A DNA stretch of 46,831 nt from positions 1-46,831 of IMG/VR virus record IMGVR_UViG_3300035698_005979; one strand, given 5' to 3'. Below are positions 16,320 to 32,162 of this stretch, piece by piece (the stretch's first letter is position 1; every line of letters starts with the position of its first letter). The notes under the pieces are model-generated. The model saw only the letters and a program-made list of their open reading frames with translations, searched no databases and had not been told where the DNA came from. The DNA is from a virus. The position numbers and the translations under genes were made by a program.

Positions 16320-19300
16320 ATGCTACTCTATCGTATCTGGCACAGATCCGCCACAGAAGAACTTCACACACGTGGTAGTGGTGCGTACACAGTTGATGAC
16401 ATTACAGAACACTTTTCACAGTTTCAACTTGACAACCTCGACGAGACGGATGACAAAAACGGCCTAACTATACATAAGACGGGGATAGTCAATCGTGTAG
16501 CATGGATGGGTGGGGCAGAGTGGGCAAAAGACTTCCCTAACACGACAGGAGATTACCACAGCGAAAACACGGTTGCGAACCTGCCTGATCTTTCTGATTC
16601 GTTTTGGGGCAAGGCACACGTGCACATAAACACCCTGAATGAGTATCTTGGCATACGGCTGGAATATTCCGCCAACAGGCTGTTCGACCTATATGTAGGC
16701 GCTGATGGGTCCATATCGTCTATAATCAGAGACTCCTCCGGCGTAGAGCGCAACAAATCAATGTCTGACCCCGGTGCAGTTTCTGTTGGGGGGGACTACC
16801 TGATCCAGTATTGGTGGGACGCCGAGAACCTGATCGTTGGGTTGCGGATAAAAGACGTAACTGGTTCCACCGGAGTAACGGAAGAAAACGACTGGGCGTA
16901 TGTCCCGTCAGCCGAACCAAGTGCAAGGATGGTATACGGAAGGTTTACCGATTCTCACATAAGGGACGTGTGGCTTTCGACAGGACACGTTCCTAGTTCT
17001 AACGACGTACTCGCTGTGGAGGCTGCTGGTCTTTCGGCGTGGGCTACGTTGAAGGACGTTGAGTTGTCACAGGGCTTTCGTGTCACTTCCATCTCACCCA
17101 TAACGCAATCTGTCGATATAGCCGCTGGAGAGTTTAAGTATGGCGACATGAGTGTCACATGCTACGGCATCGACGAGACCTATTTTGTAAAAGACCTGTT
17201 CACGAACTTCTTTATGTTTGAGGTACAGGACCCCGTTGCTGGTGGATGGGTAACTACCGGAAGCAGTACGCTGTTTTGCGGCATGATAGACGAGGCGTCC
17301 GTTTCGTATGACTACAAGACGAAGCAGTGCAACTTTACGGTCTGCTCTATCGACAAGATGCTCGATACGGATGTAGACCCAAGAACAATTGCCACTAGCG
17401 AACTGTCAAGCGATTTTACTATCACGAAGACGATCAATCCCAAAGTCAATATTCGCGGATATAACTACGGGTATGTTCAGAACGATATTGCTGTTCTAGA
17501 CTTCGTTGACTCCGCAGATGTATGGGATGAGGGATCGACTGTTATAATTGAGGGCAAGTCTATCAATGACAAGCCGGTAGAGTGGAGGTTCTTGATCTCT
17601 ACCCTTCAGGCTACTGGGGACGTGAACGGCCACTCTTCATTGAAGGGCCGCGCAACAACTATTGGCGAGATACCAAATCCAGGGTTTGGCCCATTCACCG
17701 ATTGGTATGACGAGGATATAAATTGGCCTACAAACGCTCCTTGGAACCCCCCCGCAGCCACCGGAACAGTACAAGGCTTCTTCGTGCCACGGTCGGAGTT
17801 TAACGGCGATTACACACAGTTGATTGGATCAACGCTCAGGATCAGGGGTGACGACGGGAAAGATTATTACTTCGCCGTAAGTGACGCAAGAGAGCATCAG
17901 TTGTACACCGCGTGGACCGTGGCTGGACAGACCGAACAGAACTGTGTCTATCTAATGTTTGAGGGGAATTATCCACACCAAAATTCACACATCGACAGCA
18001 ATTACGTAAGTAGGGAGTATGAGTTTTATCTTGACGTGAGTATTCCCGCAGGGTCAAAGGTTACGATCTTGGATGGGGAGGTTCACGGTGCTGGTGATGG
18101 AGTGATAACAGACTTCACTGCGGTAGAGTTGGTGACAGGACTACTTGATGTGTCCCCCATATCGTCCCTAATCGCAAGCATAAATGTGCTTGGCACGGAT
18201 CCACTTGGAATGAGGGTGTCGAAGTCGGCAGACTTCCCATCTAATTTGGCAGATTTGCTTAGTCAGGTGCAGAGACATTGTGTCATGTCCCTCATGTTTC
18301 TGCCAGGGACGGACGCGGTTGGGCGCGGGTTTAATGTATATATTGCCAGTGCGGAATATCTACCAGAGGCTGGTCCAATTGCGATTGACGTTCCATTTGA
18401 GTATGACACGCAAATGCTCCAGCCTGACCCGATTGTTGTATTTAAGGGACACAAGAACGTAAACGCACTGACGGTAGAGAAGGGGTCTATCGGGTGGTAC
18501 AGTACGCTTGTTTCCGACTATAAGTTTGACCCAGAGAACCCTGGCGACAGGCGTATCTACGAAATCGACTCACCCCTAACCATTCCTTCTGGAACGGGCA
18601 TCTACGTCGCACCTACATCTGGCGTATATCTGAACGACAACAAACTCAAGGGGTTTGCGAAGCGCTACTACGACATGTTGTCCCAGTTCAACAGAACCGC
18701 AACCGCGCAAATCAGCGGACACATTGCCGCAGCAATACCAGGATACTTGGTGTCTGAGGCGGAAACAGGAACAACTGGTTGGGTCACAGAGGCGTCGTAT
18801 GACGCAGTGCAGAAGATCACCACGCTGCAAATGCGCGTGTCAGACAACTATGTTCGAGGAGCGGAGGTGGCACCAGTCGCACTACTTGGCGGAAACAGCG
18901 AAGTCTACGAAGACTCTCCTGGTGGCGGTGCCTCATATGTCGTATTCAGCGCCGGATCGTCGTATTCCCCAAGCGGCTTTACTCTACAATACGCATGGTA
19001 TGTGAAGGCATCTGGAGGGGCGTTTGTTCTTCAGGCAGACGAGACTGGCTCAATATTTGAGCACAACTGCACCACTGCGGACACGATAAAGGTAGAGGTA
19101 ACGGGCCTACTGCTCACGGACGATGCGGAGATTGTGGTAACGGTACTTGCACAGGCCGACTCTGCCGCAGGCGACTGGTCAACGTTTGTAAAGGATTTGT
19201 ACACAGATGTTGAAATCCTGTCCAGTACAGACACAACCGTGACTGTGGGTGTTATTACACGCCAAAAGAAACGCAACATTCGATTCGACTACAAGGTCAT

Positions 19301-22300
19301 CGAGGATGGGCAAGAGGACGCTCCCGCCGGAGGCTCGTCAGCGACCGTATACGAGTACATAGGGTCAAGCCTGGTGATAGACCGCCCAACTGGCACCTAT
19401 GGCACCAGGACCCCTCTGAGGCATTTGTGGGTAAGAGGGGTAAACGTTGATGACAATTACGCAACCGGATGGGTGAAGGTAAATATTGAGAGGTGGCAGA
19501 AGGCGCAGGTACTAAACGCATCGTTTGCCGTGAACCGTGACGAACTATTTGTGTATGGCATAGAGGTTGATAACGATACGGCAAGTATTATTATAACGCT
19601 GTATAGTCTTGATGGCACTATACTTGGTGTATCCGGCTCGATTGTGACGCCATTTCCAGATGAAACATTCGACATAGGGCCATTCACGGACGTGGTAGAG
19701 GGATGGAAGATTCTTATCACCCCCTACGACAGTGATGCTGTAGCGGGTGAAGCGTATTGGATTGGGGGGAATGACTTTCCTCCCGTAGTGGTTGGCGTTC
19801 CGTCTCTTGGGACAGAGTATCCAACAACTGGCTTTTACCCTATCATATCTGTTGAACTTGGTGCGTTCTGTGAATCATTTGAGATAGCAGTTACGACAGA
19901 CACGTCTGTTCCTGGCGCATATAATTCGACGGTAAACGTTGCGGCTCCCCTAAAGAACACTGTGTATCAGGGAGCACCTGCGGCATATGGTTCTACTATA
20001 TACTGGCATCTCAAGGCATGGACGACTGCAGGGGGAACCGGACGAGCCAACACTGACATTTACTACAAGCAGGAGATTCCAAACGGCAAAGGTGACGTTA
20101 GTGCACGCGCTGGATCACTAGCACTGGATTATGGGGCATTGACTGTGCTTGCTGGCGTGCACACGCTTGACTGCGGATCGGGCGATGACGTCGGGCTGTT
20201 GAAAGAGATAGACACGAATACTCCTGTCGTACTTTATGACAGAGTTACCGGTCTGCGGCTAACTGACGAAACGGAGTTCTTCCGCCCAACAAGATATTAT
20301 ATCAAGGGCGAGACAACCATTGCTCTTAACTCGACAGATAGCGCAGACTACGCGGCTGCGAATGGTGTGTTTATGGACATTGATCCATACGAAACCGCTC
20401 GTAGGCAAGCAGAGATGGAGCACGCTGCGATGCTTCGTGAGGCAGAGACGATTCACCCAAGAATAAGAAACCACGCGGCTGTACAGGCCGTATTTCTTGG
20501 AAAGCCGAACGGTACCGATCATCAGTGCTCTGCGCATATGCAGCCAAATGGTGACTCAAGGATAATATTTGTTGACGACGGAGCGGCAAACCCATTTGTT
20601 GATACGGTGTATTCTGTATACGGAATAAAGCAAGACGATGCTGGACTAGCCGACTGGAGGACCACATGGGACAACTGCCCATTTTATGACGTACTAAACC
20701 CGTACGGCGAAGTAACGTATTTCACTGTTATGAGGTGTGATACTGACGCAACGTGGTACTTCAACCCCTACAGTCAAGACGCGAATAGAATTCTTGCTAA
20801 CGCCCTAAAGGAGTCAACTTGTGAGTTGAAGGTAGAGTTTGGTGATTCGGGAGTGCTGACTCCTACGGATCCCTATTGCGAGACCGGTAATGAGCAGCAA
20901 TGGGTACTGATCTCCGTGTCAATGAAGCCATCTATTGGACAGGCCGTTTGGAGATGGGTTGGCGAAGATGGGTCCACCGGGGAATACGAAGTGAACTGCA
21001 CGCCATTTGTGTGGGCCGATAAGTCAGCCGAGCCGGTGTTTTATGGAAAGGCGGAGGCGGCTGCGTGGATGTTTACACTCGACTGGTTGCCTATAGACGA
21101 CGATCCGTCAGATCAGATATTCAAGGCCCTCGCATATGGTCTAAAGGAGACAGTCAAGAGTAGGGGTATTGAGATTGCCAATCCATTTCTTACGTGGAAG
21201 CATGAACATGAACTAGATGAAATTACACAAAGGGGCAAAGACAGCGATCAATCACGCAGGTTGAGGGGCGTTCCTTCTTCTGTTCCTCCTGGCCTTGTAT
21301 ATGCGACGGACTTCAAGAAGAACAAGGTTACTGGAGAAGTAACAAACCTTGCCACAGGAGCCGAACTGGACTACGGTGGCCACAAGATTAGCCAGACATA
21401 CGGATTGGAGTTGAGTAACTCCGACCCCCTAGACACTCTTGATACAACAATGTTCGATGGGGACTTCTCTATCGGTGGAATGATCAAGGGCGCGTCATCT
21501 TTTGCCGCCGAACTTGTCACTGTTAAGTGGAAGTCTCCGGTGTCACGCTTTCTAACTTCGCACCATACTCTGGGCGAAGCAACAGGCGACATGGTAGCCG
21601 ACATCGGTGAAGACATTACTGAAGTAGGCACGGTGCCACAGAGGGCATGGCCCAGTGGTGGATTCGGAAGGGAATTTACGGGAGGGACGACAAATTACTT
21701 CAGAAAGAGCATAACCTCACCAATTACATTTAATGACAAGTTTTGGATAGGCGTGTGGTACAGTCCGGACTATGCCTCAACCGATGGCACCGCAGTGGCA
21801 TATCTCATAAAGCAGGTTATTGGCAGTCGTTATGTTGGTATTTACACAATTGCGTCAAAAGTTGGAATACTCATAACTACCTCCGCTGGTAACAAGACGA
21901 AGAACATAACAACAACGTGGGCCGCTGGAGACGAATTGTGCATACAGGCCGTATTTGATCCTATTGCCGATACGGTTCGGATTAAGGTAAATAACATTAC
22001 GAGTGCTAGTGTCGCATACGTTGGGACTCCGTGGGATACTGGCACGACGGGAGACCTGAACGTCGGATTCGACGTTGACGTTGACGGTGTTGCGAGAAAC
22101 TATTTCACCACCGTTGGATACGAACCAACGGAAGACGACATGGATCTGGTGTACAATAGTGGCACACCCCTTACATACTCTGAATTATCAGCCCTTGAGA
22201 TTGAGGGATTGTCGAAGTTGGAGGCCACTGCCTATTCGGGAGACCTCCCAACTTTGCTGTATACGGATCCCGCCGGAAACTATGCATATTCCGGGGCGCT

Positions 22301-25300
22301 TGAGAGTGGACCCTCAACGTCTGACGGATCGGTGCCGCAGTTTTGGGGCATTGGGTTCGACCCTTCGCTGCCGGGAGGTGAGATTATATTGGTTAGCCAG
22401 GAAGACGAGCAGATACTTGTTACCGGAGGGTGCTATCAAAATACGGGAAGAACCGCGTTTCTTGAGCCTGTCGATGGCCCGTGCTATGCGGTGTCTGTTC
22501 CGACCCTTGGTGGCACGGTTACAACAGAAACATATCTGCAGTGGCTATTGGTGCATGATTTCCGATTTCACTGGCAGCATTGGTTCCAGTTGTACCACGC
22601 ACTGGTACCCTCGCAACAGTATAATGGTTCGCGGCAATTGTCAAACGTTCCGACTCCTGACGAATATGCCCAGAAGCGACCAGAGGGAGGTGGTGCTTTG
22701 GGGCTATGGGATTGGTACTATGTTCCACCGGGGTTCTCCCTCCAGGTGGCATATATTGACAGGCCAGAGCAATACGTAGAGACGGGCCAAGAACTGTACA
22801 TCGTGAATACGGCTGGAGAGATTCAGGCTGTCACGTGTTCAATGACGGCGAAGCCACGGCAACAGGGCGATGAGCACGAATTTGGCGATATATATGTGTA
22901 TATCGTTAGGAAGTATATTGACATGGAGATTGACGAAGGGTCCATCGTCTTTACCAGCAAGAAGGATGCGGAGTTCTATGCAAAGACGGCGAAAGTAGGC
23001 GAGGGATGGGATCCCGCAACTGCACCCATAACAGCCGTTATTCCAGACCCGTCAGACCACGGAGTTGTGGTTGATTCCGAGACTGGGATTGCCAAGAAGA
23101 CCCCCTATAAATCAATTGGCGTTGGAGGTGTATTTGCCGAAGACGAAGATTCTGCTATGGATACTTTCATGTCATTCAAACTGTCGAAGACGACAGGCAA
23201 ACTCACCCTTGCGATGGGTGACGGTACGGAAGTCGAGTTCACAGGCTCTGTGACTACCCAGGGAGAAGACCCTGTTGGTATGGGCCGCGCCTTCGACGAC
23301 CTCGTGGAACACTGGGAGTTGACGGGGCCTGCCGGAGACGAAACCGGCTTGTACAATAAATACGTAATGACCGAAGTTGGCACTGTCGGACTGCGCGATT
23401 TTGTCCGTGGGAAGGCTAGGGACTTTAGCACTGGAAACTATTTCTCTTCCGCAGACACTGCAGGGAGATACCCGTCACTTGACGAAGACTTCTGGTTTAG
23501 CACATGGATCCATGTTGACACGATTGGCGACATAAACAGGATCGTGTCCAAGGGCGAGACTGCTACTACAGATTCGGAATACTACCTATTTAAAAGTGCG
23601 GGTGACGTTGCCAACTTTACCGTGCGCAACACAGCGGCAGGTAGCGCAAATGCAGCCTCTACGGTTGCTCTTGTGGTTGGTGGAGACTACAATGTTCAGT
23701 GTTGGTGGGACGCTTCTACTCAAACCCCATACATATCTGTGGACAATGAGGCACCCGTGCCCTCCGCTGCTGCACTTACTGGTACTCCGCAGTCTGGGTC
23801 GGACGCATTGTATATCGGCTCACTTGTGGCAACACTTGAGCACGACGGGCTTATCCAGCGGGTTACGTGTTGGAGAAGAATGCCTGACGATGCGACGGAA
23901 TATACATGGCACTTCGCGGCTGGTGTGCCGCGCGACTTTAGCGAGTATGGCGACTATATCAGCGCTGACCCTTCGGAAGCAACCATAACATCATACCCAT
24001 CTCAAAGTGCCGACGACGCAGAAGAAGATACAACTGTAATGAACATTGACAGGGGTAGCGCAACTAAGGCCGCTACTGGTATTCGTGTTGGATATTCTTC
24101 TCAAGAAGCGGCAATGTTTAGGTTCCCGGAAATAAACATTCCGCAGGGATCTACTATAACATCTGCGTACCTAACACTCTATACGCACAAGGCTACGGCT
24201 GGCACACCTGCCACGGCATGGCCAATCTATGGAGAAGACCACGACAACTCTCCGGTTGCCTCGAGTGTGTTGTCAAACATAACAAACAGAACCCGTACTA
24301 CGGCAACAGTAGCATGGAACGGAGCGAGCGACGGTGCACAGGGCACTGCCCTTGTGTCTCCAGACATGAAGACTATCGCACAGGAGATTGTTGATCGTTC
24401 TGGGTGGGAGTCTGGAAATGCAATGACGTTTATATGGTACGAGGTCGCCGGGGGTGCAGCAGGAGAGCGGAATATAATGGGGTGGGATCACTGTGACTAC
24501 ACTGTCCTTCCTCAATACCTCCCCAAACTTGTTGTCGAGTATGAGGCAGGTGGAGGGGGAACACCTCCATCATACGACGACATTGATCAGTCTGTTGCCG
24601 CAAGCGGTGACGACGGAATGTGTCATGCGGTTGACATCGGTGCGGGGCTATATTCAGACCTCGACGCAACGTCTATAGTACTTGGCGACATTGATGGTGG
24701 GGGTGTTGGATGGTTCCGGTTCCCAACAATTGGCATTCCGCGAACATCGCTTGTGACAAGCGCGATCTTGGAACTCGAAGCCGTTGTCTCTAGAACCGAC
24801 CACTTCGAGGTGGACATCTTTGGGGTAGAGCAGTCGAATCCCCTAATACCCACTACGGGAGAGAATTTGTGGTATAGGCCGCGATTCAATACCGGCACGA
24901 GGTTCGTGTCAGACACAAGCGTTGCTATAGGGGACAAGATTTACATAGACGTTACCAGCGTGGCGCAACAAATGGTGAATCAGACAGGGTTCGACGAGAC
25001 CTCTGCCATGATGTATCTGGTTGGAGTGTCACAGGCGGGGCGCATTGGACAGAGAACCGTCGCCGCGTTTGACCACGTCACCGCTACCGCTCCTAGACTG
25101 CGCATCAACTATACCTACGCCGCAGACATTGAGCCTCCAACTGGTACGTCATTCGTTCCCAAGTGGGACAACGTTGGTGGCAACTTCGTTGATCAGTTCA
25201 CTGGAGGCCGCCCAACGTATGACCCACGGGACTTGACACGAGACCAATATGTTCTTGTCAGTCACAACGCGCTTGATAGGGATTATGACAACGTGATGGC

Positions 25301-26525
25301 GGCTGTGACAAACGCAGACAATCCGCCTCCGGGCAAGAGCCTGTCAGAATACCCGCGTAGTCGCACGAGAACTATTGTGGTTGACTATGCGAACGGCGAC
25401 CCCTATCCAATCCGTCATACAATTAACTGGCTTGATTGGCCAGGTGGCGGTGGTCCGCTGATTCTCGCTGGCAACGTTCCGTCTGTTGGCGTTCAACTGC
25501 AGGGTGACGCGCGATACGGATTCGTGAACGACAAGTGGGAGATACGCGATACCAATGTCATGTTCGCCAACTTGAAGTGGAACGACATTCGCGGCTTTCG
25601 TGGAGTTGGCGGAGTGCGCTCAATCTTCCTCAACAACCAATTCATGGACACCTACGGTGACATCATTATGATGGCTCGCGGTTCCCTGGTTGCATCAACG
25701 GGTGATAACGACGGCTTCCACGCTATCGTAGGCAACACGGTTTGGAGGGGACACAACAGGTATCAATCTGGTGGAGTAAAAAATGTTGGGCAGCATCTGT
25801 TCTACTGTGAGGTGGGTGCCGACAGGGACAGTGCGTCTCAAATCATTGTTGCGCACAACGCCTCATTCCAGCAATCCGGGTCACTCTGTCAACTCTTGAC
25901 ATACGGCACACCTTCGACATCGTTCGGTGACACGACGTATGACAACCCGATCATTGACAACAATTTTATGTGGAACACATACAGGTGGCTCAATATCGAG
26001 CGTGCCGGTATGGTGGACCCGGAAGTGACAAATAATACATTCCTTTGCGGAACGAACTGGGACCCCGAACTACGAGAACTTGTATATGTCGGAGTGCCTA
26101 CCGACTTTACGGGTCTTGATCCGTATGAATACCGGATCGCAGAACCGCGTACTGGTACATGGAAACTGGTTGATGGGGGAACGTTTGACGACAACCTAGT
26201 CATTCATGCGCATACCTCTGCCGACTGGTTTAACATCACGAGCACAACTGGCGACCAATTTCCAACAGTAAAGAGTGGCAACCAAGTGGCAATGGAGTCG
26301 GGGGCAAAGTACTGGTACAACACCGCTACCTATCTGCTCGATGCTACATTCGACACCAGATGGGGAACAACAAGGTTCGCCAGATCAACACTATCTGACC
26401 CACTTGGAAACTGGAGCAACAACCCAATCAATGAGATCCAAGCGAAGATCGACGAACTACAGTCCGATCGTGGGAATGTAGGGACTGGACACACAGCCGC
26501 GTTCGGCACAGCATGTCACAACTGA
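16320..26525 (+). CDS. Giant multi-domain tail hub/fibre protein, 3401 aa
   Basis: One uninterrupted frame of 10.2 kb, about 22% of the window. Approximate domains from sequence patterns: a concanavalin/LamG-like region (25-215); a hub-like beta region with INYGYVQND- and DTDVDPR-type segments (245-830); Ig/fibronectin-like repeats (855-1060); LamG-like at 1780-1955 and 2360-2535 (the pattern 'DFWFSTWIHV...' recurs in the first copy as 'DSFWGKAHVHI'); two tandem DNRLRE/CBM96-like carbohydrate-binding domains (2557-2745, 2752-2937); and a right-handed beta-helix with NNQFMD, VGNTVWRG, HNASFQ and DNNFMWN rungs (about 3015-3260). It probably forms the tail tip and binds or degrades surface glycan. 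Start ATG 16320 has GGGGA upstream. Confidence 0.8.
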   Translation: MLLYRIWHRSATEELHTRGSGAYTVDDITEHFSQFQLDNLDETDDKNGLTIHKTGIVNRVAWMGGAEWAKDFPNTTGDYHSENTVANLPDLSDSFWGKAHVHINTLNEYLGIRLEYSANRLFDLYVGADGSISSIIRDSSGVERNKSMSDPGAVSVGGDYLIQYWWDAENLIVGLRIKDVTGSTGVTEENDWAYVPSAEPSARMVYGRFTDSHIRDVWLSTGHVPSSNDVLAVEAAGLSAWATLKDVELSQGFRVTSISPITQSVDIAAGEFKYGDMSVTCYGIDETYFVKDLFTNFFMFEVQDPVAGGWVTTGSSTLFCGMIDEASVSYDYKTKQCNFTVCSIDKMLDTDVDPRTIATSELSSDFTITKTINPKVNIRGYNYGYVQNDIAVLDFVDSADVWDEGSTVIIEGKSINDKPVEWRFLISTLQATGDVNGHSSLKGRATTIGEIPNPGFGPFTDWYDEDINWPTNAPWNPPAATGTVQGFFVPRSEFNGDYTQLIGSTLRIRGDDGKDYYFAVSDAREHQLYTAWTVAGQTEQNCVYLMFEGNYPHQNSHIDSNYVSREYEFYLDVSIPAGSKVTILDGEVHGAGDGVITDFTAVELVTGLLDVSPISSLIASINVLGTDPLGMRVSKSADFPSNLADLLSQVQRHCVMSLMFLPGTDAVGRGFNVYIASAEYLPEAGPIAIDVPFEYDTQMLQPDPIVVFKGHKNVNALTVEKGSIGWYSTLVSDYKFDPENPGDRRIYEIDSPLTIPSGTGIYVAPTSGVYLNDNKLKGFAKRYYDMLSQFNRTATAQISGHIAAAIPGYLVSEAETGTTGWVTEASYDAVQKITTLQMRVSDNYVRGAEVAPVALLGGNSEVYEDSPGGGASYVVFSAGSSYSPSGFTLQYAWYVKASGGAFVLQADETGSIFEHNCTTADTIKVEVTGLLLTDDAEIVVTVLAQADSAAGDWSTFVKDLYTDVEILSSTDTTVTVGVITRQKKRNIRFDYKVIEDGQEDAPAGGSSATVYEYIGSSLVIDRPTGTYGTRTPLRHLWVRGVNVDDNYATGWVKVNIERWQKAQVLNASFAVNRDELFVYGIEVDNDTASIIITLYSLDGTILGVSGSIVTPFPDETFDIGPFTDVVEGWKILITPYDSDAVAGEAYWIGGNDFPPVVVGVPSLGTEYPTTGFYPIISVELGAFCESFEIAVTTDTSVPGAYNSTVNVAAPLKNTVYQGAPAAYGSTIYWHLKAWTTAGGTGRANTDIYYKQEIPNGKGDVSARAGSLALDYGALTVLAGVHTLDCGSGDDVGLLKEIDTNTPVVLYDRVTGLRLTDETEFFRPTRYYIKGETTIALNSTDSADYAAANGVFMDIDPYETARRQAEMEHAAMLREAETIHPRIRNHAAVQAVFLGKPNGTDHQCSAHMQPNGDSRIIFVDDGAANPFVDTVYSVYGIKQDDAGLADWRTTWDNCPFYDVLNPYGEVTYFTVMRCDTDATWYFNPYSQDANRILANALKESTCELKVEFGDSGVLTPTDPYCETGNEQQWVLISVSMKPSIGQAVWRWVGEDGSTGEYEVNCTPFVWADKSAEPVFYGKAEAAAWMFTLDWLPIDDDPSDQIFKALAYGLKETVKSRGIEIANPFLTWKHEHELDEITQRGKDSDQSRRLRGVPSSVPPGLVYATDFKKNKVTGEVTNLATGAELDYGGHKISQTYGLELSNSDPLDTLDTTMFDGDFSIGGMIKGASSFAAELVTVKWKSPVSRFLTSHHTLGEATGDMVADIGEDITEVGTVPQRAWPSGGFGREFTGGTTNYFRKSITSPITFNDKFWIGVWYSPDYASTDGTAVAYLIKQVIGSRYVGIYTIASKVGILITTSAGNKTKNITTTWAAGDELCIQAVFDPIADTVRIKVNNITSASVAYVGTPWDTGTTGDLNVGFDVDVDGVARNYFTTVGYEPTEDDMDLVYNSGTPLTYSELSALEIEGLSKLEATAYSGDLPTLLYTDPAGNYAYSGALESGPSTSDGSVPQFWGIGFDPSLPGGEIILVSQEDEQILVTGGCYQNTGRTAFLEPVDGPCYAVSVPTLGGTVTTETYLQWLLVHDFRFHWQHWFQLYHALVPSQQYNGSRQLSNVPTPDEYAQKRPEGGGALGLWDWYYVPPGFSLQVAYIDRPEQYVETGQELYIVNTAGEIQAVTCSMTAKPRQQGDEHEFGDIYVYIVRKYIDMEIDEGSIVFTSKKDAEFYAKTAKVGEGWDPATAPITAVIPDPSDHGVVVDSETGIAKKTPYKSIGVGGVFAEDEDSAMDTFMSFKLSKTTGKLTLAMGDGTEVEFTGSVTTQGEDPVGMGRAFDDLVEHWELTGPAGDETGLYNKYVMTEVGTVGLRDFVRGKARDFSTGNYFSSADTAGRYPSLDEDFWFSTWIHVDTIGDINRIVSKGETATTDSEYYLFKSAGDVANFTVRNTAAGSANAASTVALVVGGDYNVQCWWDASTQTPYISVDNEAPVPSAAALTGTPQSGSDALYIGSLVATLEHDGLIQRVTCWRRMPDDATEYTWHFAAGVPRDFSEYGDYISADPSEATITSYPSQSADDAEEDTTVMNIDRGSATKAATGIRVGYSSQEAAMFRFPEINIPQGSTITSAYLTLYTHKATAGTPATAWPIYGEDHDNSPVASSVLSNITNRTRTTATVAWNGASDGAQGTALVSPDMKTIAQEIVDRSGWESGNAMTFIWYEVAGGAAGERNIMGWDHCDYTVLPQYLPKLVVEYEAGGGGTPPSYDDIDQSVAASGDDGMCHAVDIGAGLYSDLDATSIVLGDIDGGGVGWFRFPTIGIPRTSLVTSAILELEAVVSRTDHFEVDIFGVEQSNPLIPTTGENLWYRPRFNTGTRFVSDTSVAIGDKIYIDVTSVAQQMVNQTGFDETSAMMYLVGVSQAGRIGQRTVAAFDHVTATAPRLRINYTYAADIEPPTGTSFVPKWDNVGGNFVDQFTGGRPTYDPRDLTRDQYVLVSHNALDRDYDNVMAAVTNADNPPPGKSLSEYPRSRTRTIVVDYANGDPYPIRHTINWLDWPGGGGPLILAGNVPSVGVQLQGDARYGFVNDKWEIRDTNVMFANLKWNDIRGFRGVGGVRSIFLNNQFMDTYGDIIMMARGSLVASTGDNDGFHAIVGNTVWRGHNRYQSGGVKNVGQHLFYCEVGADRDSASQIIVAHNASFQQSGSLCQLLTYGTPSTSFGDTTYDNPIIDNNFMWNTYRWLNIERAGMVDPEVTNNTFLCGTNWDPELRELVYVGVPTDFTGLDPYEYRIAEPRTGTWKLVDGGTFDDNLVIHAHTSADWFNITSTTGDQFPTVKSGNQVAMESGAKYWYNTATYLLDATFDTRWGTTRFARSTLSDPLGNWSNNPINEIQAKIDELQSDRGNVGTGHTAAFGTACHN

Positions 26526-28255: not shown

Positions 28256-28509
28256 ACCAGACGCTAAGAGACGGTAGCACGACACTTCAATCATTGATTC
28301 ATATCATTCGTACATGCGCAGACGGGCGTACAGGTACTGTGGTTCTCCATCGGGATGTGACAGAAAGCGTCGTTATTGACGATGCGTTTGTGACACTCGT
28401 TCCGTATGACGAGGCGGTCGAGGTTGACGGCACAGTTGAATTGCGCAATGGAGCCGAGATTGCCTTCGACCCTGACGTTGCCTTTGTTGGCCGTGTTAGA
28501 TGTGCGTAG
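28252..28509 (+). CDS. Hypothetical protein, 85 aa, last rightward gene
   Basis: ATGA overlap with the cupin stop and GAGAC upstream support the start. Acidic, beta-rich C-terminus (VDGTVELRNGAEIAFDPDVAF) suggests repeats of a small beta fold. The stop codon is immediately followed by the 3' end of the leftward tRNA array, so rightward and leftward transcription meet here without a visible terminator. Confidence 0.65.
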   Translation: MNQTLRDGSTTLQSLIHIIRTCADGRTGTVVLHRDVTESVVIDDAFVTLVPYDEAVEVDGTVELRNGAEIAFDPDVAFVGRVRCA

Positions 28510-28602
28510 AGGAAGGAGGAGGACTCGAACCCCAGACACACCGAGTGACCCGCCAGGTTTTCAAGACCTGTCGCGGCTCCAATGCCGCTGCTTCACCTTC
28601 CT
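28510..28602 (-). tRNA. tRNA-Ser(TGA)
   Basis: Anticodon arm CAGGT-CTTGAAA-ACCTG gives TGA. A long variable arm is present, as expected for serine. T-loop TTCGAGT is canonical. Acceptor pairs as AGGAAGG/CCTTCCT or GGAAGGT/TCCTTCC, so ends may be off by one. No CCA is encoded. It is the last tRNA of the array. Confidence 0.85.
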
Positions 28603-28629
28603 TGTGTCATGCAGTACGAAGTGAATTGT

Positions 28630-28869
28630 TTAGTTTTTGTCCTGCAGCGCTGGCCACTTCAAAACGTCGATGGTTTTCCCTTCGTCATTCATGAAGTAAA
28701 TCTCATTAATAGCCTTGTCAATTCGGATTGACACAGGTGTAATATTCTCAAACTCAAGGTTAAGGAATAGAACCTCCTCCCCCTTATGCTCAACTGTTTG
28801 AAGTTGAGTGCGCACGCACTCATGCAATGTTTCAATCTTTCTGTCGGTTCTGGTTACTTTCACAAACAT
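28630..28869 (-). CDS. Hypothetical protein, 79 aa, inside the tRNA array
   Basis: A clean ORF between two serine tRNAs. Begins MFVKVTRTDRKIETLHECV; ribosome site GAAAGA is weak but present. The second half is beta-rich (EEVLFLNLEFENITPVSIRI). No family recognised. Placing a protein gene between tRNAs makes it a possible moron carried with the array. Confidence 0.6.
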   Translation of the reverse strand: MFVKVTRTDRKIETLHECVRTQLQTVEHKGEEVLFLNLEFENITPVSIRIDKAINEIYFMNDEGKTIDVLKWPALQDKN

Positions 28870-28911
28870 GTCTTTCTACCTTTTATTTTGCCGTGCTGCA
28901 TGACAACTGTG

Positions 28912-28999
28912 CGGTAAGAGCGAGATTCGAACTCGCGGAACCTTTTAGGGGTCCACTCCCTTAGCAGGAGAGCGCGATAATCCGCTCTGCCACCCTACC
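28912..28999 (-). tRNA. tRNA-Ser(GCT)
   Basis: Anticodon arm CTCTC-CTGCTAA-GGGAG gives GCT. Long variable arm and discriminator G both fit serine. Acceptor GGTAGGG/TCTTACC has two G-U pairs. Reads AGC/AGU codons and complements the Ser(TGA) gene. Confidence 0.9.
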
Positions 29000-29072
29000 G
29001 AAAACTTGCTCCATAGCCCCTCCACGCTATGTGCCTTGACCTACGCTCGTGTGCCGTAGGTCCCCATTCTGG
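29000..29072. other. tRNA-sized spacer with two hairpins
   Basis: Exactly 73 bp between two tRNAs. It holds an 8-bp stem (GACCTACG/CGTAGGTC, 29038-29062, loop 9) and a 6-bp stem CATAGC/GCTATG (29012-29031). No cloverleaf or anticodon can be assigned. It may be a decayed tRNA or a processing element. Confidence 0.4.
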
Positions 29073-29145
29073 AGGAGCCAGTCGGATTTGAACCGACATA
29101 ACAGGGGTTGCAACCCTGCGCCTTGCCTGATTCGGCCATGTCTCC
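29073..29145 (-). tRNA. tRNA-Cys(GCA)
   Basis: Anticodon arm CAGGG-TTGCAAC-CCCTG gives GCA. T-arm GTCGG-TTCAAAT-CCGAC is perfect. Acceptor GGAGACA/TGGCTCC carries one A-G mismatch. Discriminator T fits cysteine identity. Confidence 0.9.
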
Positions 29146-29229
29146 TGATTAGGGGCAACACAACCCTCTAAGTTGTACATCCATGCTAGCATTCTCGGTG
29201 GACTTAGATAAAGTCATGCATACCCCGTA

Positions 29230-29305
29230 GTGCGGATACCAGGATTCGAACCCGGACGAGCGACTTGGAAGGCCGCCATGCTGTCCGTTAAACATCACAC
29301 CCGCA
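29230..29305 (-). tRNA. tRNA-Gly(TCC)
   Basis: Anticodon arm GCGGC-CTTCCAA-GTCGC gives TCC. Acceptor TGCGGGT/ATCCGCA pairs fully with one G-U. T-loop TTCGAAT canonical. Its 5' end overlaps the last 11 bp of the HNH gene on the same strand. The 84 bp between it and tRNA-Cys (29146-29229) hold no clear gene. Confidence 0.88.
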
Positions 29306-29609
29306 TATTCTTATGTAGCGTCCTGTGGCAGTTGGCGCACATCGGAACGCACTTGCGTATCTCAGTTTTAATCTTGCCAATACTAACATAAATGCCATTA
29401 GACACACTAAATTCTTTGTTCCCGTTGTGATGAAAATCGCAACATTCTTCTTTCCCCTTGAACGACATGCCACATGTTGCACAGGACAAGAGTGACTTGT
29501 ATCTCGCAACAAAAGATCGACGCTTCGCCCTAGCAATCTTGCTCCTTAATATTTGTTCCGACTTATTGCGCTCGTACCAACGCCGCTGTGCGACTGATTG
29601 TTTAGCCAT
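29295..29609 (-). CDS. HNH endonuclease, free-standing
   Basis: 104 aa with start set at ATG 29609 (MAKQSVAQRRWYERNK). A basic N-terminus precedes a zinc-bound HNH core: CATCGMSF, CCDFHHNGNKEFSV and the C-terminal CVPMCANCHRTLH with the paired Cys and His ligands. Such genes nick or cut DNA and are often mobile (homing). The 3' end overlaps the neighbouring tRNA-Gly by 11 bp, which fits insertion next to a tRNA. The tRNA itself is intact. Confidence 0.85.
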   Translation of the reverse strand: MAKQSVAQRRWYERNKSEQILRSKIARAKRRSFVARYKSLLSCATCGMSFKGKEECCDFHHNGNKEFSVSNGIYVSIGKIKTEIRKCVPMCANCHRTLHKNMRV

Positions 29610-29720
29610 ACATCCAATATACACCGCTGGTTGGACAAGTATAAATAAAGTGCAACAGTTTCCCCACCGAAATCAAGTTGCGTGTTGTCCCAAGCCTGAC
29701 GGACAACTCCCATCTTACTG
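29610..29720. other. Spacer between HNH gene and tRNA-Tyr
   Basis: About 110 bp upstream (leftward sense) of the HNH gene, without any tRNA arm or long ORF that I can support. It may hold the leader of the HNH gene. Confidence 0.3.
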
Positions 29721-29804
29721 TGACGTGTCATGGAATCGAACCACATAGCCATAAGGCATCTGCTTTACAGGCAGCATAGTATCCCAGTATCTTCTTCACA
29801 CGCC
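29721..29804 (-). tRNA. tRNA-Tyr(GTA)
   Basis: Anticodon loop CTGTAAA gives GTA. The extra-long variable arm is the bacterial type expected for tyrosine. Acceptor GGCGTGT/ACACGTC pairs with one G-U; discriminator A. Confidence 0.85.
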
Positions 29805-29812
29805 ATATATCG

Positions 29813-29885
29813 TTGCCTCCTTGGGAGTCGAACCCAAATCTCACGGTTCGTAGCCGCGAATACTCTCCAGTTGTACTAAAAGGCA
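29813..29885 (-). tRNA. tRNA-Arg(ACG)
   Basis: Anticodon arm CGCGG-CTACGAA-CCGTG gives ACG, normally edited to ICG to read CGN codons. Acceptor TGCCTTT/GGAGGCA pairs with two G-U. T-arm TTGGG-TTCGACT-CCCAA is perfect. A 25-bp near-copy of its 5' end recurs at 31268-31292. Confidence 0.92.
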
Positions 29886-29920
29886 GTGTGTATAATAAAC
29901 TCAACAGTCTGATTAAAGTC

Positions 29921-30004
29921 AACAGGACATTACCCGGACATTTATCCGGACATTGTGTCCGGATAGAGCAGTTAGTGCTAGTTTAGCGGACATACCCGGA
30001 CATT
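29921..30004. repeat. CCGGACATT repeat cluster with hairpin
   Basis: The 12-bp word TACCCGGACATT occurs at 29931-29942 and again at 29993-30004. Between them lies a 21-bp palindrome (29944-29964, ATCCGGACA-TTG-TGTCCGGAT). Four or five copies of CGGACA occur in 84 bp between two tRNAs. It could be a processing hairpin, a protein-binding array or a recombination trace. Confidence 0.65.
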
Positions 30005-30005
30005 G

Positions 30006-30090
30006 TGGTATCTGTGGGACTTGAACCCACACCCCCTTGCGGAGACTGGATTTTGAATCCAGCGTGTCTACCAGTTCCGACCACGATAGT
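30006..30090 (-). tRNA. tRNA-Leu(CAA), acceptor stem imperfect
   Basis: Anticodon arm CTGGA-TTCAAAA-TCCAG gives CAA, with a long variable arm and a perfect T-arm GTGGG-TTCAAGT-CCCAC. The acceptor 5' ACTATCG against 3' AGATACC pairs only in the middle (A-C, C-C and G-A mismatches). It may be poorly charged, edited, or decaying. Confidence 0.75.
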
Positions 30091-30154
30091 ATTTGAGAGT
30101 TGCCCACCCATAACCGGAGCAACCCGGACAGCGGGGTGGGTCTCTTCAGCGCCG

Positions 30155-30239
30155 TACTCACCGAGGGAGTCGAACCCTCACACCCTTTCGGATACTAGAT
30201 CCTAAATCTAGCGCGTCTACCAGTTCCAGCCAGGTGAGC
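30155..30239 (-). tRNA. tRNA-Leu(TAG)
   Basis: Anticodon arm CTAGA-TTTAGGA-TCTAG gives TAG, reading CUN codons. Acceptor GCTCACC/GGTGAGT, T-arm GAGGG-TTCGACT-CCCTC, long variable arm and discriminator A all fit. Confidence 0.92.
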
Positions 30240-30247
30240 TTTTGTTG

Positions 30248-30320
30248 TGGAAACGGAAGGATTCGAACCTCCAGCGCGTGGTACTTCACACCACCGTTCT
30301 ACCATTGGAACTACATTTCC
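30248..30320 (-). tRNA. tRNA-Phe(GAA)
   Basis: Acceptor GGAAATG/CGTTTCC, D-stem GTTC/GAAC and anticodon stem GTGGT/ACCAC are clear. The 7-nt loop is GTGAAGT, giving anticodon GAA with U33, but with unusual G32 and G37/T38. Histidine (GTG) was considered and does not fit the stems. Confidence 0.78.
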
Positions 30321-30416
30321 AAAGCGGACAGATTACACGCTGTCGCACCGTGACCCCTAACCACCTTCTTCCCGCTATTAACGGGGGCATGTTCATGTAG
30401 GGCTGCATGGTCGTTG
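30321..30416. other. tRNA-sized spacer with stem-loops
   Basis: A 96-bp gap. On the minus strand it has CCCG-TTAATAG-CGGG (a 7-nt loop like an anticodon loop) and a 5-bp GACAG/CTGTC stem. No acceptor pairing is found. It may be a decayed tRNA. Confidence 0.35.
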
Positions 30417-30491
30417 TATAAGCGACAGGATTCGAACCTGCGTAATCCTTGGTCCCAAACCAAGTGCTCCTGCCATCTGTGCTACGCCTAT
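30417..30491 (-). tRNA. tRNA-Pro(TGG)
   Basis: Anticodon arm CTTGG-TTTGGGA-CCAAG gives TGG. Acceptor ATAGGCG/CGCTTAT pairs with one G-U. T-arm GCAGG-TTCGAAT-CCTGT. Discriminator A. All four CCN codons could be read by wobble. Confidence 0.88.
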
Positions 30492-30541
30492 ATATTATGT
30501 ATTGTTCTTTTGTGCATTTGTACTATGACGGCGTTTTATTG

Positions 30542-30615
30542 CGGTGGCGAAGGGACTCGAACCCTCATTCCCCAGACTGACAATCTGGTAACTTATCCAA
30601 TTAGTCTACATCACC
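30542..30615 (-). tRNA. tRNA-Asp(GTC)
   Basis: Anticodon arm CCAGA-TTGTCAG-TCTGG gives GTC. Discriminator G fits aspartate. Acceptor GGTGATG/CGCCACC has one A-C mismatch and one U-G pair. T-loop TTCGAGT. Confidence 0.88.
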
Positions 30616-30620
30616 GATTG

Positions 30621-30692
30621 CAGTGAAGGTAGGATTCGGACCTACATTTCCACGCTTAACAGGCGTGTGTCTTACCGTTAGACGACAACACT
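30621..30692 (-). tRNA. tRNA-Asn(GTT)
   Basis: Anticodon arm CACGC-CTGTTAA-GCGTG gives GTT; discriminator G fits. The T-loop is TCCGAAT, with C at the normally invariant U55, and the acceptor AGTGTTG/CTTCACT has two T-T oppositions. Recognisable but atypical. Confidence 0.8.
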
Positions 30693-30719
30693 ATGTACCC
30701 CCCGATTATTTATACACGT

Positions 30720-30810
30720 TGGAGGGATCTACCTCTCCGAAGAAAGGGCACCACGTGTCCGCATTTGGAGTGCGGTACTCTTGGCGAGGTCTTCTAGAGA
30801 GTCTTCCTCG
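30720..30810 (-). tRNA. Degenerate tRNA-Trp-like (CCA) sequence
   Basis: A perfect anticodon arm CCGCA-CTCCAAA-TGCGG gives CCA, and a D-stem CTCT/AGAG precedes it. The T-arm is replaced by a 6-bp hairpin with TTCG loop and the acceptor pairs only partly (GAGG/CCTC plus a bulge). It is probably a non-functional or very unusual tRNA; an orthodox Trp gene lies at 32163. Confidence 0.4.
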
Positions 30811-30814
30811 TTCG

Positions 30815-30886
30815 TTGCGGCAGCAGGAGTCGAACCTACAGATACGTGCTTATGAGACACGTGAGTTACCATTACTCAATACCGCA
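30815..30886 (-). tRNA. tRNA-Met(CAT)
   Basis: Anticodon arm CGTGT-CTCATAA-GCACG gives CAT. Acceptor TGCGGTA/TGCCGCA pairs fully, so this is not the C1-A72 mismatch of a bacterial initiator. It is elongator Met, or an Ile2 tRNA if C34 is converted to lysidine. Confidence 0.88.
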
Positions 30887-30894
30887 TTGTTTGG

Positions 30895-30967
30895 GGTGAA
30901 CGTCGGGACTCGAACCCGAACCAACAGAGTCACAGTCTGCCGTGCTACCGATTACACTACACACACC
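30895..30967 (-). tRNA. tRNA-His(GTG)
   Basis: Anticodon arm GCAGA-CTGTGAC-TCTGT gives GTG. The extra 5' G (-1) opposite discriminator C is encoded, the hallmark of histidine. Acceptor GTGTGTG/CGTTCAC has one T-T. T-arm TCGGG-TTCGAGT-CCCGA perfect. Confidence 0.9.
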
Positions 30968-30990
30968 GAGTTTCTTGTGCAAGATATTTG

Positions 30991-31063
30991 TTGTCACAAA
31001 AGGATTCGAACCTTTGTCGTCGGTGTATCAGACCGATGCACTGACCAGTTGTGCTATGTGACA
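30991..31063 (-). tRNA. tRNA-Ile(GAT)
   Basis: Anticodon arm TCGGT-CTGATAC-ACCGA gives GAT. Acceptor TGTCACA/TGTGACA is perfect and discriminator A fits. T-loop TTCGAAT. Confidence 0.92.
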
Positions 31064-31068
31064 ATGGT

Positions 31069-31145
31069 ATGCCGATGCCGGGGGTTGCACCCGGACTTCC
31101 CCTGCCGTAACGCAGGAGCGTGCTTGTACTAACACCACATCGGCA
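31069..31145 (-). tRNA. Atypical tRNA-like element, possible Val(TAC)
   Basis: Acceptor TGCCGAT/ATCGGCA is a perfect 7 bp and a D-stem is present. The anticodon region is a long stem CTCCTGC/GCAGGGG with a 6-nt loop GTTACG (TAC if U33 is the first T). The T-loop is TGCAACC (no TTC). Discriminator T. Function doubtful. Confidence 0.45.
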
Positions 31146-31155
31146 TGTAAAATGG

Positions 31156-31252
31156 GAGAGGTCGTCAGGACTCAAACCTGCTATTCAAGACATTCCACCA
31201 AATCGTCATCCGGCGTAGAGGTCGAGCGTGATAATCTATTCACTACGCCCCT
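31156..31252 (-). other. Degenerate class II-like tRNA sequence
   Basis: 97 nt. Ends pair as AGGGGCG with CG(A)CCTCT, one bulged base. A D-arm GTG...CAC and a T-arm CAGG-TTTGAGT-CCTG are visible, with a variable segment of nearly 30 nt. The anticodon arm does not pair cleanly, so no anticodon is assigned. Confidence 0.35.
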
Positions 31253-31267
31253 CATGTTGAAGCCCCC

Positions 31268-31292
31268 TGTACTCTCCGGTTGTACTAAAGGC
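31268..31292 (-). repeat. Copy of the 5' end of tRNA-Arg
   Basis: On the plus strand TACTCTCCGGTTGTACTAAA matches TACTCTCCAGTTGTACTAAA of the tRNA-Arg gene (29862-29885 region), differing at one base, plus a flanking GGC. Only the acceptor 5' strand and D-arm are present. It is likely a remnant of a tRNA duplication. Confidence 0.65.
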
Positions 31293-31299
31293 CCATTTG

Positions 31300-31375
31300 T
31301 GGGGACGGTGGGGCTTGGACCCACTTGTAACCCGTTACCCTTTCAACCGCTTATAAGACGGAGGGGATACGCCCC
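31300..31375 (-). other. tRNA-like element without a D-arm
   Basis: 76 nt. Ends pair GGGGCG with CG(T)CCCC plus one bulge. T-arm GTGGG-TCCAAGC-CCCAC (C55), a variable hairpin GTAA/TTAC, and an anticodon-like arm with loop CTTATAA (TAT) are seen. Only about 8 nt lie where the D-arm should be. It may be decayed or a truncated tRNA. Confidence 0.4.
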
Positions 31376-31384
31376 GATGTATTG

Positions 31385-31456
31385 TAGGAATGGTGGGATT
31401 CGAACCCACACGCGCTTGTTTGTAGGACAAGTGCACAGCCGTCGTGCTCCACTCCT
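31385..31456 (-). tRNA. tRNA-Val(TAC) with C33
   Basis: Acceptor AGGAGTG/CATTCCT, T-arm GTGGG-TTCGAAT-CCCAC, and anticodon stem CTTGT/ACAAG are good. The loop is CCTACAA: anticodon TAC preceded by C instead of the near-universal U33. Confidence 0.8.
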
Positions 31457-31480
31457 GTGTCACCGCCTGAATTTCCGACC

Positions 31481-31531
31481 TAGGACCGGTGGGACTTTGT
31501 ACCCAACGTCGTGGCGATGGACGACGGCCTA
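31481..31531 (-). other. Two-hairpin RNA-like element between tRNAs
   Basis: 51 nt. Ends pair TAGGCCG with CGG(T)CCTA. Inside are a 6-bp hairpin CGTCGT/ACGACG (loop 8) and a second arm with GGG-loop-CCC like a T-arm (loop TACAAAG). No anticodon can be assigned. It may be a decayed tRNA. Confidence 0.35.
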
Positions 31532-31532
31532 G

Positions 31533-31605
31533 TGGAAGATCACGGTTACGATCCGTGGACTCCTGCGTGCAAAACAGGTGTGTTACCGATTAGCACCAAT
31601 CCCCC
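31533..31605 (-). tRNA. tRNA-Ala(TGC)
   Basis: Anticodon arm CCTGT-TTTGCAC-GCAGG gives TGC. Acceptor GGGGGAT/ATCTTCC contains G3-U70, the alanine identity pair. T-stem CACGG/CCGTG is perfect, but the T-loop ATCGTAA is non-canonical. Discriminator A. Confidence 0.82.
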
Positions 31606-31621
31606 AAGTGTTTCATATCAT

Positions 31622-31643
31622 AGGTACTTATACACAAGTACCT
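31622..31643. repeat. 8-bp inverted repeat between tRNA-Ala and tRNA-Lys
   Basis: AGGTACTT and AAGTACCT flank the 6-nt loop ATACAC. It is the only structure in the 47-bp gap, and may guide RNase processing of the tRNA transcript. Confidence 0.55.
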
Positions 31644-31652
31644 TGGTTGTTG

Positions 31653-31727
31653 TTGACCGAGCGGGACTCGAACCCGCATTTCCCGGCTTAAAGGGCCGGT
31701 GCCTCAATCCAATTCGGCCACCGGCCA
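31653..31727 (-). tRNA. tRNA-Lys(TTT) with C33
   Basis: Anticodon stem CCGGC/GCCGG is perfect and the loop CCTTTAA gives TTT preceded by C rather than U33. Acceptor TGGCCGG/TCGGTCA, D-stem GCC/GGC and T-arm GCGGG-TTCGAGT-CCCGC are good. Discriminator A. Confidence 0.82.
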
Positions 31728-31731
31728 AGGT

Positions 31732-31815
31732 AAAATGGTAGCCTTTGTGGGATTACCATACCCACATTTCCCGCTGGACGCGGGTGTCCTTTGTCTTAGA
31801 CGATCAGGCCATTTT
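31732..31815 (-). other. Atypical tRNA-like element (84 nt)
   Basis: Ends AAAATGG/CCATTTT pair perfectly, then CCT pairs with AGG across a CTA bulge. A D-stem GTC/GAC, an anticodon-like hairpin CCCGC-GTCCA-GCGGG (5-nt loop) and a T-like stem GTGGG/CCCAC (loop TATGGTAAT) follow. Not a normal cloverleaf; could be decayed. It abuts tRNA-Thr exactly. Confidence 0.4.
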
Positions 31816-31890
31816 GAGCCAGTAGCAGGAGTCGAACCCGCATGATCCTGATTACAAATCAGGCACTTAGCCATTTCAGTCACACTGGCT
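31816..31890 (-). tRNA. tRNA-Thr(TGT)
   Basis: Anticodon arm CCTGA-TTTGTAA-TCAGG gives TGT. Acceptor AGCCAGT/ACTGGCT perfect, T-arm GCGGG-TTCGACT-CCTGC. The discriminator would be C, which is unusual for threonine. Confidence 0.88.
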
Positions 31891-31895
31891 TATTG

Positions 31896-31975
31896 TGGAG
31901 TAGCAGGGGATCGAACCCTGGTCCAGACCATTCCGCCGAGCGGACTTAAAGCCTGTCGAATCCAATCTCTACCCC
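31896..31975 (-). ncRNA. 80-nt tmRNA-like tRNA domain (no reading frame)
   Basis: The acceptor GGGGTAG/CTACTCC includes G3-U70, the alanine mark, and discriminator A. The 5' strand continues AGATTGGATTCGACAGG; GGATTCGAC is the most conserved 5' word of bacterial tmRNA. T-arm CAGGG-TTCGATC-CCCTG is perfect. There is no 5-bp anticodon stem with 7-nt loop; instead a TCCGC-TCG-GCGGA hairpin. Length 80 nt leaves no room for a tag-coding region. Alternatives: a decayed tRNA. Confidence 0.5.
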
Positions 31976-31980
31976 ATTTG

Positions 31981-32051
31981 CTGTCAGGACGGGAATCGAA
32001 CCTGTATTACGAGAGTCAAAGTCTCGTGTGATGCCTTTACACTACCCGACA
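31981..32051 (-). tRNA. tRNA-Gln(TTG)
   Basis: Anticodon arm CGAGA-CTTTGAC-TCTCG gives TTG. Discriminator G fits glutamine. Acceptor TGTCGGG/CCTGACA pairs with one G-U; the T-stem ACAGG/CCCGT has one A-C mismatch. Confidence 0.88.
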
Positions 32052-32081
32052 GAGAACCACAGTACGTCACAGAACATGCTG

Positions 32082-32156
32082 TATCGCCGACGGGCATCGA
32101 ACCCGCAAAATTCCGGCGTGAAAGGCCGACGACTTTACCAATTTGTCTACGGCTAC
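32082..32156 (-). tRNA. tRNA-Glu(TTC)
   Basis: Anticodon arm TCGGC-CTTTCAC-GCCGG gives TTC. Acceptor GTAGCCG/CGGCGAT has one A-G mismatch. T-loop TTCGATG with stem GCGGG/CCCGT. Discriminator A. Confidence 0.87.
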
Positions 32157-32162
32157 AGTTTG

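Follow-up and report, generated by a model that had tools for sequence, protein, structure and literature searches.

A phage-encoded tag-less tmRNA, likely an inhibitor of host trans-translation, and its relatives in other phages

The locus described here raises the question of which RNA a phage encodes between two ordinary tRNA genes at a place where ARAGORN makes no call, and what such an RNA might do during infection. Our window is the complete 46,831-nucleotide stretch of IMG/VR record IMGVR_UViG_3300035698_005979, whose genes include those for a portal, a protease, a major head protein, and a primase; the portal is nearest to those of Salinibacter phages (~32%). An array of 20 tRNAs called by ARAGORN occupies positions 28509-32233 on the minus strand. 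It holds, on the same strand, an 80-nt element that extends to A73 (31896-31975) and is located 4 nt after tRNA-Gln(UUG) (31980-32051) and 6 nt before tRNA-Thr(UGU) (31816-31889). A first-pass annotation made from the letters alone had proposed that exactly these 80 nt resemble the tRNA-like domain of tmRNA without a tag region, and its coordinates are borne out.

The Element Has the Anatomy of a tmRNA without a Tag

The acceptor 5' strand GGGGUAG (31969-31975) contributes G3 of a G3-U70 pair and forms seven pairs with the 3' strand CUACUCC, which is followed by A73 (31896-31903). A linker, AGAUU, leads to the tmRNA D-loop word GGAUUCGAC (31955-31963), which we take to have the same bases and numbering as positions 13-21 of E. 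coli tmRNA and thus to include the equivalents of U17 and G19. Helix P2 is formed by six base pairs between CAGGCU (31950-31955) and GGUCUG (31924-31929), as concluded from the fold and from covariation in the class described below. It encloses an internal loop and a closing hairpin, UCCGC-UCG-GCGGA (31932-31944; five base pairs and a 3-nt loop in the fold), which takes the place of tag and pseudoknots. GGAC (31921-31924), with the equivalent of A334 from the SmpB Trp-122 pocket, precedes the T-arm CAGGG-UUCGAUC-CCCUG (31904-31920); the positions of the T-arm and of G3 are also given by alignment to a covariance model, R1, introduced below. The features listed in the first-pass annotation, namely a GGGG acceptor start with the tmRNA 5' word, G3-U70, A73, a perfect T-arm, and a 5-bp hairpin in place of an anticodon arm, are thus all present in the sequence or its fold. 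Inside the sixth P2 pair there are 20 nt, made up of the hairpin and the internal loop, which leaves no space for a tag frame. We found no tag reading frame, resume or stop codon, pseudoknot, or helix 5 in the 80 nt, in agreement with the tag-coding segment having been reported as absent. CCA is not encoded at the 3' end, where the next bases are CAA. In the minimum-energy fold of the single strand (z -2.07), the D-loop pairs with the T-arm and no cloverleaf top is formed. Because the energy calculation misplaces the T-arm, the tRNA-like fold of the element rests on homology and covariation rather than on energy.

We compared the element to RNA family models. The Rfam tmRNA model RF00023 matches it with 59.6 bits (cut-off 47, E 6e-21) in an alignment that spans all 374 model positions, and all other places in the 46,831-base record score 14.5 bits or less. 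R1, for which 18 elements other than that of the window were used, assigns 60.3 bits (E 1.8e-13) to the element, and the runner-up in the window is a tRNA at 27.0 bits; a score of this size from a held-out model places the match beyond chance. In the covariance comparison that the first-pass annotation had suggested, the tmRNA model is above its cut-off and beats the tRNA model of the same clan, and the well-scoring tRNA with a normal anticodon arm that it had named as the contrary outcome did not appear. Membership in the tRNA family (RF00005) is not supported by the element, which has no anticodon arm with a 7-nt loop but a hairpin loop of 3 nt. We rejected a permuted two-piece tmRNA (RF04321), since that model reaches 29.7 bits, below its cut-off of 47, and the element is a single piece in 5'-to-3' order. 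A degraded tRNA was rejected as well, given that the tmRNA model wins and that 107 distinct elements among the matches listed carry compensatory changes. Judged from its sequence, the element is almost certainly a phage tag-less tmRNA, in which a hairpin closes off the tRNA-like domain and the first part of P2. The reading as a reduced, tag-less tmRNA thus holds at the sequence level, where the RF00023 score, the anatomy, and the conserved class agree.

Tag-less tmRNAs Recur among Phages

The first search pattern allowed no more than 40 nt between the tmRNA D-loop and the T-arm and matched five IMG/VR contigs, all of which exceed the Rfam tmRNA cut-off (58.6-76 bits, 81-90 nt). Two wider patterns, in which UCCA was also fixed, matched 17 and at least 120 IMG/VR stretches; 14 of the 17, and 118 of 120 stretches of the second pattern, passed a filter under which an element had to form 6 or more of its 7 acceptor pairs and 4 or more of its 5 T-stem pairs. 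In a control with the same D-loop words and a gap of 41-71 nt, 4 and 16 stretches were matched, and the small number that passed (1/4 and 7/16) indicates that most of the class falls within 63-84 nt. Of 157 places pooled from the scans, 140 passed the filter; the window itself accounts for 5 of these. Together, the IMG/VR scans and the named phages yield at least 147 loci with at least 107 distinct elements of 63-108 nt. This set includes the window and four named phages and leaves out Pontimonas phage phiPsal1, whose T-arm does not fit the pattern and whose element was found by Rfam and R1. A lack of conservation in related arrays had been named as grounds for giving up the reading; the element proves to be strongly conserved elsewhere. 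Linked at 80% identity, the 107 distinct elements listed form 31 groups. ACCA is encoded in 26 of 101 elements, a set that could contain stray alignment rows. A BLAST search of the phage collection with the window element gave no full-length relative (0/70 records with 80% cover), and when relatives of the primase encoded in the window were sought, one contig was recovered, whose examined stretch contains no tRNA. At the 147 loci listed, ARAGORN calls a tmRNA in two, both hundreds of nucleotides too long, and one element is called a tRNA. In a shorter form of 63-70 nt (L035, L082, L053, and others), a tetraloop or another short loop caps P2 directly, as in CGAGAC-GCGA-GTCTCG of L082; elements of 70 nt or less are found in 25 of the 147 loci listed, 22 of them without another tRNA in the locus.

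Five cultured phages carry the element above the Rfam tmRNA cut-off: Streptomyces phages LuckySocke (57.1 bits; recorded host Streptomyces lividans), BRock (64.5 bits), and pSt2308 (61.0 bits), Pontimonas phage phiPsal1 (54.6 bits), and Stenotrophomonas phage Jojan60 (61.8 bits). R1 locates it in all five whole records, and the record stretches inspected hold no tmRNA feature annotation at these elements. GiJojo and Alone3 match the element of LuckySocke along its full length. In a collection of 84,980 species genomes, 2 of 11 matches to the A-form pattern pass the filter; of the 17 matches that this pattern has in the viral collection, 14 pass. Both passing cellular elements are in metagenome-assembled genomes, each with a separate tmRNA match of 371-391 nt, and one is, by our reading of the translations, just upstream of terminase and portal genes. 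The T-form pattern is found in none of 396 Actinomycetota genomes. Among the cellular genomes sampled, such elements are nearly absent. When RF00023 was run on 49 carrier records, the element was over the cut-off in 44, the other five scoring 43.5-46.4 bits. Neither an SmpB family member nor a full-length tmRNA of the standard, non-permuted form was detected in any of these 49 records, which are mostly fragments and include four named phages titled complete genome.

Base Pairing Is under Selection

The D-loop, the T-arm, and UCCA were fixed by the search patterns, and their conservation therefore proves nothing. Helix P2 played no role in picking elements. Among the 107 distinct elements listed, its pairs 2-6 are formed in 496 of 535 cells, versus 177-211 when the partner strand is slid, and every P2 position tested shows several Watson-Crick types. 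Opposite U70, which the pattern had set and which could have paired with A or G, all 107 carry a G. Since MAFFT misplaced the acceptor in an alignment of 39 elements because of the variable linker, we built R1 from 18 elements with a 3-nt linker. In this 18-sequence alignment, 96.6% of cells are paired (72.7% shuffled, at most 52.0% slid), 14 of 21 pairs have changed on both sides, and the covariation score is 0.638, compared with 0.142 after shuffling and no more than 0.140 after sliding. R1 scores the elements of the five named phages with 78-88 bits and stretches of four records with a full or permuted tmRNA with no more than 31.8 bits.

The Element Is a Candidate Decoy of Host Trans-translation

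In E. coli tmRNA, a pocket formed by A15, U17, and A334 holds Trp-122 of SmpB, and G19 packs on SmpB (PMC8363625). The base in the A334 position was left free in the wide patterns and is an A in 105 of the 107 distinct elements listed. In our own placement on the E. coli numbering, the window element has the equivalents of A15, U17, A334, and G19. The element has thus lost its coding portion and retained the portions predicted to serve alanine and SmpB. With no SmpB and no full-length standard tmRNA in the 49 carrier records, the partner would be the SmpB of the host.

A molecule of this kind has been studied before. Mycobacteriophage DS6A encodes a "TLD only" tmRNA, and an RNA similar to it strongly inhibits endogenous tmRNA in E. 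coli, perhaps by titration of SmpB, according to PMC4131195 and PMC11915505. The inhibition by a DS6A-type RNA makes a decoy that blocks host trans-translation the best mechanism for the window element. The element would be excised from the tRNA transcript as a tRNA would be, would receive CCA and then alanine by virtue of G3-U70, and would bind host SmpB and EF-Tu. As it has no tag frame, the ribosome could not be restarted; titration of SmpB, or dead-end entry into stalled ribosomes, would then inhibit host trans-translation during infection. By our analysis, SmpB titration, with or without dead-end entry into the A site, is the most likely route. The decoy mechanism, for which the DS6A-type molecule provides a published experimental precedent, appears moderately probable to us, and we consider a tag-less tmRNA that inhibits host trans-translation a likely explanation of the locus as a whole.

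The element could also act for the ribosome rather than against it. The RNA and SmpB might help stalled ribosomes by alanine transfer followed by drop-off or hydrolysis, as suspected for mitochondrial tmRNAs, and a mitochondrial tmRNA without a tag frame does persist alongside SmpB (PMC11915505). The SmpB contact bases and the alanine identity pair, both kept in the window element, are in line with such a role. However, an RNA that has no frame offers no stop codon at which release could occur, and the inhibition of tmRNA by the related DS6A-type RNA is seen even with an unchargeable form (PMC4131195). We consider tag-less rescue unlikely.

A further possibility is a role outside translation, in which the RNA, alanylated and lacking an anticodon, would supply alanine to a phage or host enzyme that depends on aminoacyl-tRNA. 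The G3-U70 pair present in all 107 distinct elements listed would, together with the missing anticodon, suit an alanine carrier. Such a carrier would have no need to keep the tmRNA D-loop and the SmpB pocket, and no shared transferase gene was recognized among the neighbor clusters inspected, so that we regard this role as very improbable.

Genomic Setting

Among the 147 loci listed, 113 have no other tRNA and 28 are within 500 nt of one; the array in our window is therefore one setting among several unrelated ones. In 27 of the loci listed, a major capsid (head protein) gene follows on the same strand, starting 111-377 nt after the first base of the element; a head protease is found in 22 loci and a portal in 21. 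Pontimonas phage phiPsal1 has the same gene order. Placement just before the capsid gene would suit high late expression. A DnaB-like helicase gene is near 12 of the loci listed and a PhoH-like gene near 11, the latter with the short class; neighboring open reading frames were called mechanically, and family names stand for one representative per cluster.

Location between tRNAs in the window, and between protease and capsid genes in up to 27 loci listed, might suggest that the RNA is mainly a cutting signal for RNase P/Z in late operons and arrays. An ordinary tRNA would suffice for this purpose, and the tmRNA-specific bases would not persist; a mere spacer or processing unit is thus, in our view, even harder to credit than an alanine carrier. 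Least probable of all is a remnant, meaning a tmRNA or tRNA gene in decay or the end of the host tmRNA copied as an attP site. In several phages (TPA4, Yeezy, and Validus), the T-arm end of tmRNA alone does lie next to an integrase, and no element was found in these three. Against a remnant, the element has retained its two ends, every helix, and compensatory changes, the window element sits within the array 4 and 6 nt from its neighbors, and large sets occupy fixed places without tRNAs.

The window holds further tRNA-like stretches on the minus strand. The one at 31299-31379, without an ARAGORN or Rfam call, shares ~78-82% identity across most of its extent with unannotated sites in Streptomyces phages (79 records) and one Rhodococcus phage; judged by eye, it resembles a tRNA that has a UAU loop and an unusual D region. 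Two more uncalled stretches are in the array, at 31063-31147, which folds well beyond chance (z -3.36), and at 31728-31806, identified by eye. At 30006-30090, a tRNA match of 27.1 bits, below the cut-off of 29, is possibly a further tRNA. On the plus strand, 16320-26525 is one open frame of 3401 codons.

Comparison with Known Systems

The window element is a further member of a kind already known from DS6A. The novelty lies in the wide spread of the class. A single phage, DS6A, stood for the kind in the literature searched, and in the PMC open-access full text covered by that search, we found no report of a wide phage class of tag-less tmRNAs. Set against DS6A alone in those sources, at least 107 distinct elements and cultured phages of Streptomyces, Stenotrophomonas, and Pontimonas are now known. 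A 2025 tmRNA database contains 9 'standard, no CDS' genes among 97,179 (PMC11915505). A survey of 18,146 phage genomes reports tmRNA in 402, as one or two pieces by ARAGORN (PMC9004378); annotation by this program overlooks the tag-less form at the loci listed here. If the elements are decoys, blocking ribosome rescue would be a common phage strategy, and the cultured phages, which have laboratory hosts, make this reading testable. It seems to us evenly balanced whether tag-less tmRNAs, including the 63-70-nt short-loop and the late-operon, pre-capsid forms, are a large, mostly unannotated class of decoys with which many unrelated phages shut down host trans-translation.

Going by its published description, the DS6A RNA is likewise phage-encoded and comprises little beyond the tRNA-like domain of tmRNA, with no tag. 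The phage is a different one, and the window element is set in a 20-tRNA array. For DS6A, inhibition was shown with a similar molecule (PMC4131195). With standard tmRNA (RF00023), our element shares the acceptor with G3-U70, GGAUUCGAC, GGAC, the T-arm, and the start of P2, but it has 80 nt as compared with a 374-position model and contains no tag frame, resume or stop codon, or pseudoknots. The CDS-less tmRNAs of plastids (Mallomonadaceae, about 65 bp) and mitochondria have also kept the tRNA-like domain and lost the tag; in contrast, both kinds are organellar, the mitochondrial RNAs are usually permuted and co-occur with SmpB, and the available text of PMC11915505 reports no inhibitory role for either organellar form.

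Phage-borne tmRNAs of full length are known as well. With reference to Mao et al. 2009, PMC5648845 suggests that host tmRNA tagging may be countered by the one tmRNA of Sphingobium phage Lacusarx. In Gordonia phage GMA2 (L168), we located a full-length tmRNA at 2621-3032 (94.6 bits), which heads a large tRNA array and is without tmRNA annotation in the record stretch inspected. Pistol ribozyme matches above the cut-off are found near tmRNA-type genes in L006 (5916-6012) and in GMA2 (3342-3398), in the latter inside the tRNA array. Like the window element, the tmRNAs of GMA2 and of mycobacteriophages such as Bxz1 are phage-borne, and that of GMA2 is also beside a tRNA array. Unlike the window element, however, tmRNAs of this type are of full length, 412 nt in the case of GMA2, and have space for tag and pseudoknots, and such full tmRNAs in other phages indicate that opposite strategies exist.
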